The notes beneath the pieces are model-generated. The model was not told where the DNA came from and made no database searches. It saw nothing but the letters and a program-made list of their open reading frames with translations. A DNA stretch of 64,000 bases from NCBI RefSeq assembly GCF_004801855.1, contig NZ_SSTC01000020.1, positions 1-64,000 on the forward strand, given 5' to 3'. This stretch comes from Pseudomonas sp. A-1 (lineage in GTDB: Bacteria > Pseudomonadota > Gammaproteobacteria > Pseudomonadales > Pseudomonadaceae). Each line of letters opens with the position of its first letter. Positions within the stretch are counted from its first letter, which is position 1. Position numbers and translations under genes: made by a program. Shown here in pieces: positions 23,651-35,784 of this stretch.

Positions 23651-23691
23651 GCCCGGAGTTCGCCCGGTTTCATCTGGATAGCCCCGCCGTT

Positions 23692-23740
23692 TAGGGGTAT
23701 GTTTAGGGGTATTCTTGGTTCGATATTGAGCGTACCCCTA
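23692..23740. promoter_or_regulatory. Left integrase arm-type sites (TAGGGGTA repeats)
   Basis: Two direct copies of TAGGGGTA 12 bp apart (23692-23699, 23704-23711) and one inverted copy (TACCCCTA, 23733-23740) whose last base is the first base of the int ATG. The same motif occurs three times near the right end. Occurrence at both ends points to arm-type binding sites for Int or a directionality factor, and the inverted copy would let the protein repress int translation or transcription. Function is inferred. Confidence 0.55.
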
Positions 23741-25053
23741 TGGCGCGCACCGTCACCCCCCTTACCGATCCCAAGTGCGAGGCTGCCAAGCCCCGTGCCA
23801 AGGACTACAAGCTCTTCGACGGGCAGGGGCTTTTCCTGCTGGTGAAGGCGTCCGGAGTGAAGACCTGGCGCTTCAAGTTCACCCGTCCCGATGGCCGGGA
23901 AGGGCTGGCCACCTTCGGTAACTACCCGGCCCTTGGCCTGAAGGCCGCCCGCGAACGCCGCGCCGAAGCCCTGGAGCTGCTGGCGCAGGGTATTGACCCC
24001 ATCGAGCACGCCCGGCAGGCGAAGGCCAGCGCCGTGGCCGCCGCCGCGCACACCTTCGAGGCCGTGGCCCGCGAATGGCACGCCGCCTGCGCGCTCAAGT
24101 GGAAGCCGCACCACGCCGCCACGGTGCTGCGCCGGATGGAATCCCACCTGTTCCCCGCCCTGGGCGCCCGGCCTGTGGCTGATCTGAAGGTGCGCGACCT
24201 GCTGGCGCCGCTCAAGGCTGCCGAGCGCCGCGACACCCTGGAGACCGCCAGCCGCCTGCGCCAGTACATCGCCGGCATCCTGCGCATGGCGGTACAGCAC
24301 GGGATCATCGAGACCAACCCGGCCAGCGACCTGCAAGGCGCCACGGCCACCCGCAAGACCGCGCACCGGCCCGCCCTGCCACTGGAGCGCCTGCCCGAGC
24401 TGCTGGCGAGAGTGGATGCCTACAGCGGGCGCCAGCTCACTCGCATGGCCGTACAGTTCACCCTGCTGGTGTTCATCCGCTCCAGTGAACTGCGCTTCGC
24501 CCGCTGGGAGGAAATCGACTTCGACCGGGCACTGTGGACGATCCCCGCCGAGCGCCCGCCCATCGAGGGCGTGAAGCACTCCACCCGTGGCGCGAAGATG
24601 GGCACGCCGCATCTGGTGCCGTTGAGCCGGCAGGCCTTGGTGCTGCTGGAGCAGGTGCGCCAGCTGACGGGGCGCTTCGATCTGATCTTTCCCAACGATC
24701 ACGCCCACTGGAAGCCGATGAGCGAGAACACGGTAAACGCCGCCCTGCGCCGCATGGGCTACGACACCAAGGCCGACGTGTGCGGCCACGGCTTCCGGGC
24801 GATGGCCTGTTCCGCCCTGGTGGAGTCGGGGCTGTGGAGCCGCGACGCGGTCGAGCGGCAGATGAGCCACCAGGAGCGCAACGGGGTGCGCGCGGCCTAC
24901 ATCCACAAGGCCGAGCACATCGAGGAGCGCCGGCTTATGTGCCAGTGGTGGGCCGACTACCTGGACGCCTGCCGGGAGCAGTTCACTTCACCGTTCGACT
25001 TCTCCAACCGCGGCGAGGAGGCCGGCAACGTGGCGCGGATCAAGCGCGCCTGA
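23740..25053 (+). CDS. int: P4-type tyrosine-recombinase integrase
   Basis: 437 aa. N-terminal arm-binding domain (DUF4102 type, TDPKCEAAKPRAKDYKLFDG to GLKAARERR), central SAM-like core-binding domain (about 105-200), and a C-terminal catalytic domain with Arg247 (FIRSSELR), His350-x-x-Arg353 (HGFRAM), His377 (MSHQERN) and the nucleophile Tyr387 (AAYIHKAEHIEERR). It lies 171 bp from the tRNA 3' end and points into the element. All catalytic residues are present, so it looks functional. Confidence 0.95.
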   Translation: MARTVTPLTDPKCEAAKPRAKDYKLFDGQGLFLLVKASGVKTWRFKFTRPDGREGLATFGNYPALGLKAARERRAEALELLAQGIDPIEHARQAKASAVAAAAHTFEAVAREWHAACALKWKPHHAATVLRRMESHLFPALGARPVADLKVRDLLAPLKAAERRDTLETASRLRQYIAGILRMAVQHGIIETNPASDLQGATATRKTAHRPALPLERLPELLARVDAYSGRQLTRMAVQFTLLVFIRSSELRFARWEEIDFDRALWTIPAERPPIEGVKHSTRGAKMGTPHLVPLSRQALVLLEQVRQLTGRFDLIFPNDHAHWKPMSENTVNAALRRMGYDTKADVCGHGFRAMACSALVESGLWSRDAVERQMSHQERNGVRAAYIHKAEHIEERRLMCQWWADYLDACREQFTSPFDFSNRGEEAGNVARIKRA

Positions 25054-26650: not shown

Positions 26651-26976
26651 GCACCACCACCAGCGACGCCGAGCTGCTGGTGCAGGCGCCGAGCAAGATC
26701 GCCAGGGTGCTGGCCTACCAGCTGCCGGCCTGCAACTCGCTGAACCGCTTCGAGGCCGAGGCCCTGGGCGACCACTGCCTGAACTCGACCATTGCGAAGC
26801 TGACCCACGACTACGGCCTGGCCTTCCAACGCCAGCCGGAGAAGGTACCGAACCATTGGGGCACGCCCTGCGACGTGGTGCGCTACCGCTTGCCGGCGAG
26901 CCAGCAGAAGCGTGCCCGTGCGGTGCTGGCGCTGCTGTTCAAGCCGGCGAAGGATCGCAAGGAGGTGGCGGCATGA
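26647..26976 (+). CDS. Hypothetical protein, phage/satellite type
   Basis: 109 aa, overlapping the AlpA-like gene and the rha gene by 4 nt each. A basic C-terminus (QQKRARAVLALLFKPAKDRKE) and the pattern LNSTIAKLTHDYGLAF...CDVVRYRLP resemble a small winged-helix protein common in phage early regions, but no named family can be assigned with confidence. Confidence 0.65.
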   Translation: MSTTTSDAELLVQAPSKIARVLAYQLPACNSLNRFEAEALGDHCLNSTIAKLTHDYGLAFQRQPEKVPNHWGTPCDVVRYRLPASQQKRARAVLALLFKPAKDRKEVAA

Positions 26977-27629
26977 ACATCACCTTGACCACCTACAAGG
27001 GCGAGCCGCGCGTGGATAGCCGGCTGATCGCCGAGCAGTTGGGCAACCAGCACGAGAACACCTATGACCTGGTCAAACGGTACGCGGAGGACTTCCGGCA
27101 GTTCGGAATACTCCGGTTTGAAACCGGAGAAATCACCGGGCGCGGTCAGCCGGAGCAGTACGCCCTGCTCAACGAGGACCAGTGCTATCTGCTGCTGACC
27201 TACAGCCGCAACACCCCGAGGGCGCGGGCGCTCAAGATCAACCTGGTGAAAGCCTTCCGCGAGGCCCGCGACCGCGCCAGCGTCTCCGATGCCCAGTACC
27301 TGCCGTTGTACCACTCCATGCACGCCGAGGTGGCCGCCCTGGCCCAGCGCGCGAAGGAGTGCGGCAGCAGCACCCCCGAACACCTGTTCCACATCAACGC
27401 GAACAAGGCACTGAACAAGGCGATGGGGATCGCCAGTGGCGAGCGCGGCACGCTGACCATCGAGCAACGCTTGATCCTGACCACGTTGCAGGCGGTGTAT
27501 CGGCGCCACCTGCATGACAGCCTGGAGCGCGGCGACGATCACCGCGAGGCCGGGCGCAAGGCGAAGGGCGCGGTGCTGGCGTACATGGCCACCGCTGGCG
27601 GCCTGCTGCTGGGGGAGGTGGAGGCATGA
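26973..27629 (+). CDS. Rha-family phage regulatory protein
   Basis: 218 aa. The N-terminal pRha domain (GEPRVDSRLIAEQLGNQHENTYDLVKRY, then GRGQPEQYALLNEDQCYLLLT and RNTPRARALKINLVKAF) is typical of antirepressor-like or lysogeny-interfering proteins of phages. The C-terminal helical part (ANKALNKAMGIASGERGTL) is often fused to it. It follows the AlpA block in a translationally coupled run. The C4-like RNA lies just downstream; in phage P1 the C4 RNA controls an antirepressor operon. Confidence 0.85.
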   Translation: MNITLTTYKGEPRVDSRLIAEQLGNQHENTYDLVKRYAEDFRQFGILRFETGEITGRGQPEQYALLNEDQCYLLLTYSRNTPRARALKINLVKAFREARDRASVSDAQYLPLYHSMHAEVAALAQRAKECGSSTPEHLFHINANKALNKAMGIASGERGTLTIEQRLILTTLQAVYRRHLHDSLERGDDHREAGRKAKGAVLAYMATAGGLLLGEVEA

Positions 27630-27665
27630 GCCGTCCCGATCTGCGCACCCCTGTTCGCCCGAGTG

Positions 27666-27694
27666 TTGCCAAGCCCACCCGCTGGCGCTATCTT
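27666..27694 (+). promoter_or_regulatory. Candidate promoter for the C4-like RNA leader
   Basis: TTGCCA (27666-27671), a 17-bp spacer and TATCTT (27689-27694), just after the rha stop. Matches are 5/6 and 4/6. A transcript from here would meet the hairpin terminator at 27754 before the C4-like structure. Confidence 0.4.
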
Positions 27695-27753
27695 TCGCCC
27701 GTCGCGGTCAATCCCGCGGCCGACCTTGGCCGGTCGAGTAAACGCAGGCGCAC

Positions 27754-27788
27754 AAGCGCCCCCAAGAGCATTGCAGGCGCTTTTTTTG
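27754..27788 (+). terminator. Intrinsic terminator upstream of the C4-like RNA
   Basis: Stem AAGCGCC (27754-27760) with GGCGCTT (27776-27782), 15-nt loop, followed by TTTTTGTG. It separates rha from the C4-like RNA. The 320-bp interval 27630-27949 contains this terminator, a promoter-like site and the structured RNA, but no separate gene. Confidence 0.65.
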
Positions 27789-27808
27789 TGCCCGCAGTGA
27801 CGCTCTAT

Positions 27809-27892
27809 GGCGGCTGTGCGCGGGACATCCGTCCTCGTGGCGGGTGTGCCGGGTCCCTGTGTTCCCGGTCGGCCAACCCGCGTACAGCCGTC
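27809..27892 (+). ncRNA. C4/CI-type antisense RNA (P1 C4 / P4 CI-like)
   Basis: A 16-bp closing stem pairs 27809-27824 with 27877-27892 without a mismatch (G-U pairs included). Inside are two hairpins: ACATCCG (27825-27831) with CGGGTGT (27841-27847), and CCGGG (27849-27853) with CCCGG (27864-27868). The three-way layout and the surrounding GGCGGCTGTGCG...CCAACCCGC...ACAGCCG match the C4 antisense RNA family of phages. The second loop, TCCCTGTGTT (27854-27863), is complementary over 8 bases to AACACAGG (27932-27939), the Shine-Dalgarno region of the next gene. Structure is read by eye; family assignment is from memory of the consensus. Confidence 0.78.
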
Positions 27893-27949
27893 TCCAATCC
27901 TCGCTTGGCCGCGAGCGGTGACGGCTCCCCAAACACAGGAGCTGTACCC

Positions 27950-28267
27950 ATGAAGCACGACCCCGCCCGCAATCCGTCCGCACTCCGCGAACGCGCCAGC
28001 GCCCACCGCGCCATGGCCATCGCCTCCCTGCACGCCGACTCCTCCCTGTCCGTCCGCCTCAAGCGCTACAACCACCACATGGCCATCTGCCGCGACCTGG
28101 AGGCCACCGCCGCCGAGCAGCAGACCACCAGCACCCGCGACCCGCGCACCGCCCTGGCCTGGCTCAAGGCCGGCAAGTCCGTTCGGATCGACTCGCTCAA
28201 CCTGCGCGACCACCTGCGCCACGTCCGCGCCCTGGCTGCCCTGGAAGCCCGTGGGGGTGCGAAATGA
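27950..28267 (+). CDS. Hypothetical protein controlled by the C4-like leader
   Basis: 105 aa, basic, mostly helical (NPSALRERASAHRAMAIASL, SVRLKRYNHHMAICRDLE), ending in RDHLRHVRALAALEARGG. The start at 27950 has CAGGAG 8 nt upstream, and that site is complementary to a loop of the C4-like RNA. A longer in-frame reading from 27626 runs through the structured RNA and is unlikely. Function unknown; first of a run of small overlapping genes leading to the primase. Confidence 0.7.
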   Translation: MKHDPARNPSALRERASAHRAMAIASLHADSSLSVRLKRYNHHMAICRDLEATAAEQQTTSTRDPRTALAWLKAGKSVRIDSLNLRDHLRHVRALAALEARGGAK

Positions 28268-28485
28268 ATCGCCCGGCCCTGAACCTCATCGAGGCCGCCC
28301 GCAATCGTCTGGCGAAGGCCACCAGCGCCGAGGGCATCCGCTTCGAGGAGCACACCGCAATCGGCATGCTCGACACTCTGGAAAGCCTGCGCCTGATCGA
28401 CATGGACACCTGGCGCACTCTGCGCGCCGAGTTCGACAGCCTGGCCGACAGCCGCCGCGCGCTGCTGCAAGGGGGTGCGAAGTGA
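28264..28485 (+). CDS. Small hypothetical protein of the element
   Basis: 73 aa, helical (LNLIEAARNRLAKATSAEG, MLDTLESLRLIDMDTWRTL), no recognisable motif. It overlaps the preceding stop by 4 nt and the following GTG start by 4 nt, so it belongs to the coupled run. Codon bias fits coding. Confidence 0.6.
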   Translation: MNRPALNLIEAARNRLAKATSAEGIRFEEHTAIGMLDTLESLRLIDMDTWRTLRAEFDSLADSRRALLQGGAK

Positions 28486-28835
28486 GCAACGTCGCAGCCA
28501 TCACCACCAGCAAGGCCGAGGCGCTGGCCGGCGAGCTGCTGGGCGCCCACGACTTCCCCGAGCTGGGCAGTCTGCTGGCGGCAGAGCGCAAGCACTCCAC
28601 CCGCCTGTGGACGGTGCTGAACGAGCTGCGCCTGCATGGCGAGCTGCCGGCCTGGGCGCGCGAGCTGGACGCCGGCACCGGCCGCCAGTGGGAAGCCATG
28701 ATGCAAGCCCGCGCCGACCTGGACAGGGCCCTGGCCGAAGTCCTCGGTGACCCGCAGGGCGACCAGCAGCCTGCCGCCGAGCACGCCGTCCACCAGTTCT
28801 TCGCCGCTCGCTACCGCAACACCACCGAGGGCTGA
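28482..28835 (+). CDS. Small hypothetical protein of the element (GTG start)
   Basis: 117 aa beginning at GTG (28482) in the GTGA overlap with the previous gene, with GGGGG upstream; no suitable ATG exists nearby. Predicted helical, Ala/Leu/Glu-rich (SKAEALAGELLGAHDFPELGSLLAAER). No family recognised. Confidence 0.6.
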   Translation: MSNVAAITTSKAEALAGELLGAHDFPELGSLLAAERKHSTRLWTVLNELRLHGELPAWARELDAGTGRQWEAMMQARADLDRALAEVLGDPQGDQQPAAEHAVHQFFAARYRNTTEG

Positions 28836-28838
28836 CCC

Positions 28839-29084
28839 ATGACCGATTTTCAACGCTGCCAGCAGGCGGCGACGGCCCCGGCTTGCCCGGAGAAAGCTGT
28901 CCTGTCGCTGATCCCGTACCACCTGGAGCTGATCCGCGCCGCCAGCGAAGCGCATCGCCGCGTGCTGAACACCCGCGCCACCGACCCGGAGTGGCCGGAA
29001 GCACACCGCGCCTGGCTCAACGCCGCCGAGTCGCTGGCGGTCGCCATCATCCACCAAGCCGAGCGGGAGGCCCGCCATGGCTGA
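28839..29084 (+). CDS. Small hypothetical protein of the element
   Basis: 81 aa, MTDFQRCQQAATAPACPEK, then helical (LELIRAASEAHRRVLNTRA). GAGGG lies 9 nt upstream, at the end of the previous gene. It overlaps the next gene by 8 nt. Function not recognised. Confidence 0.58.
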   Translation: MTDFQRCQQAATAPACPEKAVLSLIPYHLELIRAASEAHRRVLNTRATDPEWPEAHRAWLNAAESLAVAIIHQAEREARHG

Positions 29085-29382
29085 CCAGCGCAACCCGTAT
29101 GACGGAGAAATGGCGTTCCGGCTCGCCGACATGATCGACAGGGCCGACCAGCGCCGGGCGGATCGGCTCAGGAAGCAGGCCGAGCGCGACGCCCTGTGGC
29201 GCAAGCGCATGCGTTCCGCGACCACCACCATCATGGCCATCGGCGCCATGGGCGACCACATAGCGCAGCGCCTGCCGGAGAACGACAAGCTGCGCTTCGC
29301 CGCGACCTGGATCGTTGAGTCTGCGGATCAGCTGGAGGCGATGTTTCTGGCCATGGCCACCGAGGAGGCCGAGGATGAATGA
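29077..29382 (+). CDS. Small hypothetical protein of the element
   Basis: 101 aa, charged N-terminal helix (ADMIDRADQRRADRLRKQAERD) and a C-terminal helix with acidic tail. GGGAGG precedes the ATG. It overlaps both neighbours by 8 nt; the downstream one is the primase-helicase, so co-translation is likely. No family recognised. Confidence 0.6.
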   Translation: MADQRNPYDGEMAFRLADMIDRADQRRADRLRKQAERDALWRKRMRSATTTIMAIGAMGDHIAQRLPENDKLRFAATWIVESADQLEAMFLAMATEEAEDE

Positions 29383-31615
29383 TCCCGTGATTCCCCTGCG
29401 CCGCGCTGCTGGCGATCCGCTCGACCTGCTGTTGTCGCGCCTGGAGGGTGTGAAGAAGACCGGCGCACGCTACGTCGCTCGCTGCCCGGCGCACGACGAC
29501 AAGTCGCCCTCCCTGAGCCTGTCACGCGGCGATGATGGTCGCGCCCTGGTCCACTGCTACGCCGGCTGCGAGGCCCGCGACGTGCTGGCCGCGGTTGGCC
29601 TGGAACTGCGCGACCTGTTCCCCGACAACCTGAGTGGCGAGCAGCGCCAGCAGTACCGCCGCGAGAAGCTGACCAAGGAACGGAACTTCGAGCGCCTGGT
29701 GATCGAGGCCGCCAAGGGCAGCGCCGCAGCACTGAACGACGAAGACCTGGCCCGGCTGGCGCTGGCGCAGGAACGCATCGACCAGCTTGAACGGGAGCTG
29801 GGCGAGCTGGATACGCTGCCCGAGGTGGCGCCGGATCGCCCGGGCTGGGCGGTGTACGAGTCGTGGGTACGCAACGAGAAGGGCGCGCGGCTCAAGCCGG
29901 GCGTCTACTGGCACGGCTACCGGCGCACCAAGGAGGACGAGGAAGGCGTCTCGAGCGAGGACAGCGAGCGCCCCCTGCGGGACGAGTGGATCGCGTCCCC
30001 GGTGTTCGTCGAGGCCCGCACCCTCAACAGCGACGACGGCACCGAGGGCCGGCTGCTGCGCCTGGTGACGCATGGCGGCAGCAAGGAGTGGACCATGCCC
30101 ATGGAGATGCTGGGCGGCAGTGGCGAGGAGATCCGTCGCGCGCTGTTCGCCATGGGTGCGGTGATCGCGCCGCGGCAGCGAGGCCGCTTTCTGGAGTACC
30201 TGCTGGAGCAGCAGCCGCGGCAGACCATCGCCACCACCAGCCGGCCGGGCTGGCATGAGTCGGGGGTATTCGTGCTGCCCAATCGCACCATCGGCGGCGA
30301 GGGGGTGCGCTTCCAGTCGTCAGGCCGCGCGCCGGACCTGTTCCGGGTGCGTGGCGAGCTGGCGCAGTGGCAGGCGCAGGTGGGCGCCCGCTGTGCGGGC
30401 AACCCTGTGCTGACCTTGGCGGTGGGCTGTGCGCTGGCCGGCCCGCTGCTGAATCTGGTGAAGGTGAACGGCGGGGGCGTCCATCTGGTCGGCGACAGTT
30501 CGAAGGGGAAGTCGCTGGCGCAACTGGTCGGCGCGTCGGTCTGGGGCGATCCGGGGCCGGCAGGCTTCGGCGCTTCCTGGTGCATGACCAAGAACGGCTT
30601 GGAGATCGAGGCCGCTTCCCGCAACGACACCATGCTATCGCTGGACGAGATCAAGCGCGCCAACCCGAAGGACATTCAGGAGATGGCCTACTCGCTGGCC
30701 AACGGGCAGGGCAAGGGCACCATGACCCGCGAGCGGGAGGGCCGCCAGAAGCTCGCCTGGCGCCTGCTGACCATCTCCAGCGGTGAGCGGTCGCTGTCCG
30801 AGCATGCGGCCCTGTCCGGCGATCCGGCGCACGCTGGCGCCGAGCTGCGCATGGTGGACGTGAACGCCGGCACCCGGGCGCATGGCGCCTTCGACGACTG
30901 CCATGGCCTGGACGGGGCAGGCTTCCACAGGGCCATGACCGGCGCCGTCGGCGAGCACTACGGGCACCTGGGCCCGGCCTTCGTCGAGAAGCTGACCGCC
31001 GGCAACGACCGCGCCGGGCTGCTGGAGGACTTCGCCAAGGTGCGCGCCGAGTTCCAAGCGGACAGCGCGCAGGCCGGCCGGGTGGCGGATCGCTTTGCGG
31101 TGATCGCCCTGGCCGGTGAGATGGCCATCGCCTACGGGCTGTTGCCCTGGCCGGTGGGCACCAGCCTGGCGGATAGCCTGCTGCTGTACCGGGAGTGGCT
31201 GGAGCGGGTGGGCAGCGGCAGTGCCGAGGACCGGCAGATCCTGGCCAGCCTCGCCCGCTTCATCGAGCGCCACGGCGATAGCCGTTTCTCCGATGTGCAC
31301 GCCCCCGAGACGGACAGCCGCATCCGTGACCGTGCCGGGTACTGGGAGGACGAGCCGAATCGCCGGCTGTTCCTGTTCAACACGTCCGGCCTGCAAGAGG
31401 CCGCCCACGGCTTCGGGCTGGCGCGCATCGTCACGGCGCTGGATACGGCCGGCGCCATCGCCAAGCGGGACATCGAGAAGGGCCAGAAGCGCAACACCAA
31501 GAAGTACACGCTCCCTGGCGGCAATGGCAAAGGGCGGCGCCCTGGCCTGTATGTGATCGACCCCGACCGGCTGGAGATGGCCGGTACCAACGACAACACA
31601 CACGCAGGAACCTAG
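29375..31615 (+). CDS. Replication protein: CHC2 zinc finger plus DUF927 (primase-helicase type)
   Basis: 746 aa. The N-terminal CHC2-type zinc finger has Cys37-x-x-His40 and Cys61-x-x-x-Cys65 (ARCPAHDDKSPSLSL, HCYAGCEARDVL). A linker with charged helices follows. The DUF927 ATPase domain has a P-loop GDSSKGKS at 373-380 and Walker B MLSLDE at 420-425. No obvious Toprim domain separates the two, so primase activity is uncertain. Related proteins drive replication of P4-like satellites, PICIs and mobilizable elements. Iterons lie just downstream, suggesting it acts at an adjacent origin. Confidence 0.88.
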   Translation: MNDPVIPLRRAAGDPLDLLLSRLEGVKKTGARYVARCPAHDDKSPSLSLSRGDDGRALVHCYAGCEARDVLAAVGLELRDLFPDNLSGEQRQQYRREKLTKERNFERLVIEAAKGSAAALNDEDLARLALAQERIDQLERELGELDTLPEVAPDRPGWAVYESWVRNEKGARLKPGVYWHGYRRTKEDEEGVSSEDSERPLRDEWIASPVFVEARTLNSDDGTEGRLLRLVTHGGSKEWTMPMEMLGGSGEEIRRALFAMGAVIAPRQRGRFLEYLLEQQPRQTIATTSRPGWHESGVFVLPNRTIGGEGVRFQSSGRAPDLFRVRGELAQWQAQVGARCAGNPVLTLAVGCALAGPLLNLVKVNGGGVHLVGDSSKGKSLAQLVGASVWGDPGPAGFGASWCMTKNGLEIEAASRNDTMLSLDEIKRANPKDIQEMAYSLANGQGKGTMTREREGRQKLAWRLLTISSGERSLSEHAALSGDPAHAGAELRMVDVNAGTRAHGAFDDCHGLDGAGFHRAMTGAVGEHYGHLGPAFVEKLTAGNDRAGLLEDFAKVRAEFQADSAQAGRVADRFAVIALAGEMAIAYGLLPWPVGTSLADSLLLYREWLERVGSGSAEDRQILASLARFIERHGDSRFSDVHAPETDSRIRDRAGYWEDEPNRRLFLFNTSGLQEAAHGFGLARIVTALDTAGAIAKRDIEKGQKRNTKKYTLPGGNGKGRRPGLYVIDPDRLEMAGTNDNTHAGT

Positions 31616-33020: not shown

Positions 33021-33195
33021 GCCCGCCCGCCCGGCTGCTGGGGTTCGCCCTGGAGGCCGGGCGGTTGAGTGCGCCACCACAGGCGGCTACCCTCGGCGCA
33101 ACTGATCGGCGTCTGGCCGTTCTATGCCTGTATCAATGGGCAGCTATGGATGATTACTTGCAGGTATGCTGCTGGAAGTTCAGGGAGGACGCTGC

Positions 33196-33963
33196 ATGTG
33201 GGTTTGGCGGGATAAGCGGGAAAAGTGGTTGCTTGCTGGTGCGATATCGGCATTTGTGCTGGTGTGCTTGGTTAATGCCAAGTTGCCTCTATGGCCAGTC
33301 CTTGAAGGTACTACCACTGCTGCCTTTCTGCGCGCAGATGCGACTGCCAGTGTAACTAGTGATCTGTTAATCGGTCTGATCTCTGCTTACATGTTTTACT
33401 TAGCAATAGATCTGCTTCCGAGGCATCGTAAGGAGCAGCGAACCCTTCGGGTACTCAATCTGCTGGTGGCTTCCGTGGCAGACGCGTTCCATCAAGCGCG
33501 AATTTTTGGACACGAGACGCCAATTTCCTCTATCGATGTCAAAGTTATAGACCCTGTCCTGTTGGATGGGATGGCTAGTGAAGCGAAAAAGCCTGATCCA
33601 GAAGTTTTACGTCTGAAATGTGCAACGGAAACTGCGCACTCCAGATACCCTGATTTTCAGCACTCGCTGATTCTAGCCTCTGCCATTTCTGCTGATCATG
33701 CTCTGGAGTGGTTGGTACTCACAGACAAGATTCGCCTGCTGGCCGAGGTTTACGGCACGATGCCCGATAATCCATTTTCCTACATGATGGATGGCCGCCC
33801 CTCCAAAGAGCAGATGGATGATTTGCTGGTGGTGCACAGCTACAGCCAATTCCTCGAAAAGAGAAAATCATACGAATCCACGATGCAGTTTCGGGTCATG
33901 GAAGCAATGGAAGCTGCGGCCCAGTGGTCGCGTTTCGCTAATGGAGTTTCGCAGCATGGCTAA
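33196..33963 (+). CDS. Membrane protein of a low-GC cargo pair (unknown function)
   Basis: 255 aa. Two membrane segments near the N-terminus (WLLAGAISAFVLVCLVNA and SDLLIGLISAYMFYLAI, separated by about 30 residues), then LPRHRKEQRTLRVLN and a cytosolic helical domain of about 170 residues. The start at 33196 (MWVWRDKREKW) has GGGAGG 7 nt upstream; an ATG ten codons earlier lacks a good site. Codon use is clearly more A/T-rich than in the neighbouring element genes, a sign of separate acquisition. It overlaps the nuclease gene by 8 nt. Not recognised; a membrane-anchored partner of the nuclease is plausible. Confidence 0.72.
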   Translation: MWVWRDKREKWLLAGAISAFVLVCLVNAKLPLWPVLEGTTTAAFLRADATASVTSDLLIGLISAYMFYLAIDLLPRHRKEQRTLRVLNLLVASVADAFHQARIFGHETPISSIDVKVIDPVLLDGMASEAKKPDPEVLRLKCATETAHSRYPDFQHSLILASAISADHALEWLVLTDKIRLLAEVYGTMPDNPFSYMMDGRPSKEQMDDLLVVHSYSQFLEKRKSYESTMQFRVMEAMEAAAQWSRFANGVSQHG

Positions 33964-34663
33964 TGCACGTCTCCTCGATGGCTCCTTGATTGATGCTGCC
34001 GACTTCACTCCAGAGGCTTGGGAAGGCATGAAATCTGCCAGTGCAACGGACCCTCTGCTTTTCACAATGGATTGTTGTGGTGCGCGAGCTGTTTTGAAAA
34101 CAAGCATCTATGGCGTCCAGTTCTTTGCACACTACTCGGATGAGTGTGCCACCGCCCCGGAAACGCAGTGGCATGTCGCAGGGAAAGACATGGTCATGGG
34201 AGAGTTGCAAGACCTAGGTATCCAAGGGGTGCTGGAAAAGTCTGGGGGAGCTGGCAAGCGCAAGTGGCGGGCTGACATTTACTTCGAGCTGCCTGGTCGG
34301 CGTGTGGCTATCGAGATCCAACACTCCTATCTGAATTACCGGGACTTTCTGAGGCGCCAAGAGCGATATAGGCATGATGGCGTGGAGTGCTACTGGCTGG
34401 TGCGGCATGAGAACGTTTATCCAGCGCTCTGTAAAACAGTTGTCAGGAACAGACTCAAAACCGAGCATGGGAATAAGTGGCCTGCGCCACCTGCTCAAGT
34501 TTATCCGGCGATTCCGGATATGTTCTTCGCCATTCTGCTTCCTGAACGTGACCCTCAAGTAGTTGTACCGGGCTTGGCTGTGCAGACTAAAACTCTGCTG
34601 CAGGCAATCGTGGCCGGGAACCTCCGCTATAACGGCGACTACTGGTCGATTTCAGAGGCGTAG
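33956..34663 (+). CDS. CoiA-like PD-(D/E)XK nuclease family protein
   Basis: 235 aa. It has the CoiA layout: an N-terminal Cys/His region (DCCGARAV, then FFAHYSDEC), the PETQWHVAGKD helix, and the nuclease core with Asp107 (WRADIYFEL) and Glu120-Ile-Gln122 (VAIEIQHS), an ExQ variant of the (D/E)xK motif, followed by NYRDFLRRQERYRHDGV. The start at 33956 has GGAG 9 nt upstream. It overlaps the membrane-protein gene and shares its lower GC. CoiA acts in competence in Firmicutes; in mobile elements the homologues are uncharacterised. Catalysis and role are inferred. Confidence 0.78.
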   Translation: MANARLLDGSLIDAADFTPEAWEGMKSASATDPLLFTMDCCGARAVLKTSIYGVQFFAHYSDECATAPETQWHVAGKDMVMGELQDLGIQGVLEKSGGAGKRKWRADIYFELPGRRVAIEIQHSYLNYRDFLRRQERYRHDGVECYWLVRHENVYPALCKTVVRNRLKTEHGNKWPAPPAQVYPAIPDMFFAILLPERDPQVVVPGLAVQTKTLLQAIVAGNLRYNGDYWSISEA

Positions 34664-35690: not shown

Positions 35691-35728
35691 TAGGGGTACT
35701 TTCGGATTTAGGGGTACGTTTAGGGGTA
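35691..35728. promoter_or_regulatory. Right integrase arm-type sites (TAGGGGTA repeats)
   Basis: Three direct copies of TAGGGGTA at 35691, 35709 and 35721. The last two copy the left-end pair almost exactly, with TTTAGGGGTA repeated at 12-bp spacing. Presence at both ends about 60-80 bp inside the att sites supports a recombination role. Confidence 0.55.
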
Positions 35729-35784
35729 TGGGTCGAGGCTGTGCCCCGTTGATTCCGCTATCTGTGAGGCCTGTGGGTGCGGTG

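Follow-up and report, generated by a model that had tools for sequence, protein, structure and literature searches.

In Pseudomonas sp. A-1, the replication operon of an apparently P4-like satellite is very probably under the control of a C4-family antisense RNA. The window analysed here is a stretch of 64,000 nt (assembly GCF_004801855.1, contig NZ_SSTC01000020.1, positions 1-64,000, forward strand). This reading draws on the Rfam match, the fold z-score, the matches to the c4-a1b1 and isrK models, a P1-like order of segments and cognate pairing over 148 loci. It is further based on four co-resident C4 RNAs that each fit their own leader only, on the in-step change between the window element and a second element (C179) of the same genome, and on the P4-like gene order shared with phiAH14b. 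Counted against it were the G-U pair in b1, the c4-a1b1 and isrK scores below their gathering cut-offs, and cross-matching co-resident loops that are not depleted. With this, the RNA-based immunity switch of P1 and P4 would also occur in small elements of the satellite type in the Pseudomonas family.

Table 1. Features of the C4 region and of the element around it (window positions)
Feature	Position	Strand	Basis or remark
Left direct repeat, candidate attachment site	23690..23712	+	96% identical to right repeat
Tyrosine integrase	23740..25053	+	integrase of the element
Rha-family regulator, start approximate	26970..27629	+	PF09669, 54.8 bits
Promoter-like site TTGCCA-17-TATCTT, predicted	27666..27694	+	consensus match only
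c4-a1b1 leader element (RF03163)	27688..27740	+	covariance model
isrK-like leader RNA (RF01394), terminator at its end	27701..27787	+	covariance model
a1 target site TTGGCCG	27726..27732	+	pairs with a', 7 nt
b1 target site AACGCAGG	27741..27748	+	8 pairs with b', one G-U; duplex -13.3 kcal/mol
Hairpin GGCGC-ACAA-GCGCC, 5' end inside b1, candidate antiterminator	27747..27760	+	folding
Intrinsic terminator with T run, stem arms 27754-27760 and 27776-27782	27754..27787	+	folding, alignment; kept in relatives
C4 antisense RNA	27803..27898	+	RF01695 covariance model, fold
b' loop CCTGTGTT	27856..27863	+	C4 segment
a' segment CGGCCAA	27870..27876	+	C4 segment
a2 target site TTGGCCG	27905..27911	+	pairs with a', 7 nt
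b2 target site AACACAGG	27932..27939	+	overlaps Shine-Dalgarno AGGAG (27937-27941); b' duplex -15.5 kcal/mol
First target gene, 105 aa	27950..28267	+	kept behind C4 in relatives
Small genes, same operon as the 27950 gene	28264..29382	+	before the primase-helicase
Primase-helicase, CHC2 zinc finger and DUF927	29375..31615	+	domain matches
Right direct repeat, candidate attachment site	35707..35729	+	96% identical to left repeat, 12 kb off

The C4 RNA, its fold and its pairing segments

The C4/CI-type identity put forward in a first-pass annotation of this DNA is borne out by the Rfam C4 model, the check which that annotation had proposed and which scores 64.8 bits against a gathering score of 45 (whole-window E 2.7e-10); Rfam has only two further matches in the window. 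The order a1, b1, C4, a2, b2 and gene annotated in phage P1 points the same way. The closing stem of 16 bp with two inner hairpins, likewise described before, is the minimum-free-energy structure of the 96-nt region (-56.4 kcal/mol), with a z-score of -6.03 and none of 200 shuffled sequences (mean -37.4 kcal/mol) as stable. The features of family membership are present, namely the long closing stem, the two inner hairpins and the single-stranded a' linker. Judged by model score and fold, the window RNA is a genuine, well-formed C4/CI-type antisense RNA, an expected member of a family already known.

The mature RNA is predicted to run from GGC at 27809 to near 27892. P1/P7 C4 is processed by RNase P, and the C4-like RNAs of Acinetobacter are highly expressed and apparently processed (PMC5320573). 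The RNase P start of the window RNA is a prediction carried over from P1 and Acinetobacter, and the GG at 27809 agrees with the GGW/GGC cleavage motif reported in the same study (PMC5320573).

The first-pass annotation had also placed a loop, TCCCTGTGTT, at 27854-27863 and had it pair over 8 bases with 27932-27939; both positions hold, and the ribosome-binding site that this pairing was said to cover is separated by 8 nt from the ATG at 27950. As claimed, the RNA heads a small-gene/primase operon, a position that it shares with P4. While the pairing of the loop with b2 stood, the layout given there was incomplete, having overlooked that a' pairs with a2 and that a leader with a1, b1 and a terminator lies upstream. 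With these included, C4 has four complementary sites in cis (a1, b1, a2 and b2). Absence of b1 was considered and rejected: strict Watson-Crick pairing gave 4 nt, and allowing one G-U pair gives 8 pairs.

Upstream, the promoter-like site has 9 of 12 consensus matches, for which shuffled sequences give an expectation of 0.0. The c4-a1b1 element scores 43.1 bits (E 1.6e-9), slightly under its gathering score of 46.7. We call the leader isrK-like and not isrK because its score of 39.4 bits (E 5.8e-7) is under the gathering score of 50. A simple terminator scan returned nothing, its loop limit leaving out the terminator listed in Table 1.

Loops and targets change together in relatives

A search of 116 genomes found C4 in 52, and the sample compared here comprises 148 distinct C4 loci from 39 genomes, which are related to one another and do not represent independent events. 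Many different loop sequences occur among these loci, and the leader match follows them. Measured by its longest Watson-Crick match, b' fits its cognate leader over 7.59 nt on average and over 7 nt or more in 108 of 148 loci, whereas against other leaders the mean is 4.53 and at least 7 nt are matched in 3.7%. For a', the corresponding values are 6.80 (at least 7 nt in 126 of 148) and, in non-cognate pairs, 4.26 (5.3%). None of 2000 permutations reaches the cognate mean for either segment. Since an 8-nt match between b' and leader is found in 96 of 148 cognate but in 1.3% of non-cognate pairs, the agreement of loop and leader is not due to chance, and this co-variation across relatives supports the proposed a' and b' pairing. 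Within the C4 group of the window, a2 and b2 are as well conserved as a1 and b1.

The host genome itself carries four C4 loci, each loop matching its own leader over 8 nt and the other three over only 4-5 nt. Between the window and C179 elements the target gene is 98% identical over 60 nt and 90% identical over 300 nt from its start, and despite this near-identity a', a1 and a2, as well as b', b1 and b2, have all changed in step; the C179 loop reads CCTTTTC. As far as sequences can tell, these two elements are the cleanest natural test of pairing specificity: loop and targets change jointly while the target gene stays nearly constant, which provides ready specificity pairs inside one genome.

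Exclusion of elements of equal specificity was also considered as population evidence for immunity in trans, and was rejected. Loops that cross-match are not depleted within genomes (20 of 511 pairs within versus 214 of 10,367 pairs between genomes), and the population data therefore give no support for trans exclusion.

An apparently P4-like element adjoining a tRNA gene

The C4 region lies in an element of about 12 kb, bounded by the direct repeats at 23690 and 35707 and adjoining a tRNA-Thr gene. Its genes run in the order integrase, excisionase-like protein, Rha, C4 region, small genes and CHC2/DUF927 primase-helicase; relatives of the last are found in Azotobacter, Azomonas and Pseudomonas. 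Pfam and PHROG scans of the 105-aa product encoded at 27950 gave no match, and no capsid families were found among the subset of the element's ORFs that was scanned. The gene order (integrase, regulators, immunity RNA, primase-helicase) fits a P4-like satellite, and phiAH14b has the same P4-like order. By its gene content, the element appears satellite-like and resembles satellite P4, with putative mobilisation by a helper. In its right part (33166-34663), an orphan ORF of 265 aa precedes a gene whose product has a CoiA nuclease-like domain (PF06054); the two are possibly cargo or defence genes.

Proposed mechanism and alternative readings

We propose that the leader would be transcribed from a promoter near 27666-27694 and that part of the transcripts would end at the leader terminator, giving a short isrK-like RNA, while read-through would give a precursor from which RNase P would cut out C4. 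Pairing of a' and b' with a2 and b2 would then cover the ribosome-binding site of the 27950 gene and block its translation, and, with coupling lost, the downstream primase-helicase operon would be switched off as well. Pairing of C4 with a1 and b1 on the nascent leader probably promotes early termination too. The element would thus be kept quiet, and it should be immune to incoming elements with equal loop specificity. We infer expression, processing, repression, termination and immunity, including any immunity in trans, from the sequences compared here.

The strongest competitor to silencing through the ribosome-binding site is that C4 acts mainly by attenuation, with a2 and b2 secondary, a reading that we consider unlikely. 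On this account, pairing of b' with b1 would open the hairpin at 27747-27760, a rival of the terminator stem at 27754-27782, so that transcription would stop before C4 and the operon. Such a 5-bp hairpin, beginning in the last bases of b1, is found in 86 of 117 leaders against 9.3 in shuffled sequences, its 3' arm doubles as the terminator's 5' arm in 39 of the 59 leaders with a T run, and folding has it form in the nascent leader of the window; moreover, action by premature termination via seqA and seqC has been reported for P4 CI (PMC4825925). However, the arms of the hairpin are mostly identical among leaders, which makes the co-variation evidence for it thin, and the equal conservation of a2/b2 and a1/b1 speaks against a secondary role of the former. 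At equilibrium the full leader favours the terminator (-12.6 versus -8.4 kcal/mol for the hairpin); a thermodynamic on/off switch is therefore unsupported and, as the terminator already wins, any switch between the two must be kinetic, which is plausible. That b1 overlaps a conserved hairpin in competition with the terminator suggests attenuation controlled by C4, a detail that is possibly new: on this model, C4 bound to b1 would do away with the hairpin, which could hasten termination. Only tentatively do we extend this to a two-site switch in C4-family RNAs, in which the Shine-Dalgarno site would be masked and b1 pairing would commit the nascent leader to the terminator. The literature searched, whose scope did not take in the older literature on P4 termination, held no description of such a switch. 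In any case, the attenuation model is now concrete enough for testing.

Two further readings fare worse. It is very unlikely that this copy of C4 was recruited to control genes of the host instead of its own element: C4 RNAs are indeed abundant and present in multiple copies in many genomes, with four in this host, and host-gene regulation has been proposed for the C4-like RNAs of Acinetobacter (PMC5320573), but the window RNA fits four target sites in cis and sits in an element that carries an integrase and a primase. Still harder to credit is that the region codes for protein, with an ORF at 27626-28267 that spans C4 and continues into the gene at 27950, the fold of the RNA being incidental. 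That frame is open in the window, and ORFs like it have been annotated across C4 in phiAH14b (L042, 3771-4253) and vB_Pae_U10 (L043, 1871-2614). Relatives, however, have in-frame stops 54-240 nt before the ATG (e.g. L047, L118, L057 and L049), the ORF has no family match, and the RNA model score and fold are strong. Given the stops and the missing family match, the long protein was rejected, and the annotated proteins of phiAH14b and vB_Pae_U10 are, given the stops in related loci, probably annotation artefacts. Control of the element's own operon by C4 remains the preferred reading.

Comparison with known systems

The closest counterpart is C4 of phages P1 and P7, which is described by the same covariance model and has the same order of a1, b1, C4, a2, b2 and first gene. 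The P1 record also shows 7-nt a1/a2 and 8-nt b1/b2 segments around C4, with b2 at the ribosome-binding region, and the complementarity of its a2 and b2 to P1 C4 is exact. P1 C4 controls the antirepressor locus icd/ant, whereas the targets in the window are small genes and a primase-helicase. The loop sequences also differ from those of P1/P7, and the second hairpin of the window C4 is longer.

Gifsy-1, a full prophage, has a system that controls an antirepressor and, via the antirepressor, an antiterminator locus. Like the window, it has a leader RNA with a terminator (isrK) and a C4 match directly after it (L225 34131-34214, minus strand, directly downstream of the isrK match); by position, STnc1160 is probably this C4 RNA. 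Gifsy-1 differs from the window element in these targets and in being a full prophage; in addition, the isrK score of the window leader is under the gathering cut-off.

In satellite P4, as in the window, an immunity RNA heads the replication operon, with an isrK-type leader upstream and a similar gene order. The Rfam C4 model matches the P4 CI region (L226 8420-8507, minus strand), directly downstream of an isrK match. In the P4 record, the region of the CI RNA carries a protein annotation. With C4 matches downstream of isrK matches in both P4 and Gifsy-1, the two systems and the window look like one architecture, and IsrK has been called a structural homologue of seqA (PMC4825925). P4 CI differs in that premature transcription termination is reported for it (PMC4825925), whereas b2 of the window overlaps the Shine-Dalgarno site, as in P1.

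C4 RNAs elsewhere

Thirty loci of a low-GC genus (L194-L223; genomes G017, G033 and G045) retain cognate matches of at least 7 nt at a1 in 25 of 30 and at b1 in 28 of 30, with downstream a2/b2 in only 2-3 of 30; on this pattern, their C4 RNAs form what appears to be an upstream-only subtype. The genus is Entomomonas, L217 being a 100% match to plasmid NZ_CP094973. In some of these loci (L209, 1501-3087; L213, L217, L218 and L220), C4 immediately precedes genes of the VgrG type (type VI secretion tip), an assignment based on PF05954 and PF04717 for L209 and on the tssI annotation of the plasmid. Many other Entomomonas C4 RNAs precede paralogous small proteins of about 96-140 aa, for which the one copy scanned had no Pfam match. 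To judge from these neighbours, C4 may have been domesticated in Entomomonas. In the family of the window, up to 34 C4 matches occur per genome (G034, G009, G025, G032 and others), and at G044:C237, 73375-73741 (L156 and L174), two C4 matches stand in tandem about 280 nt apart.
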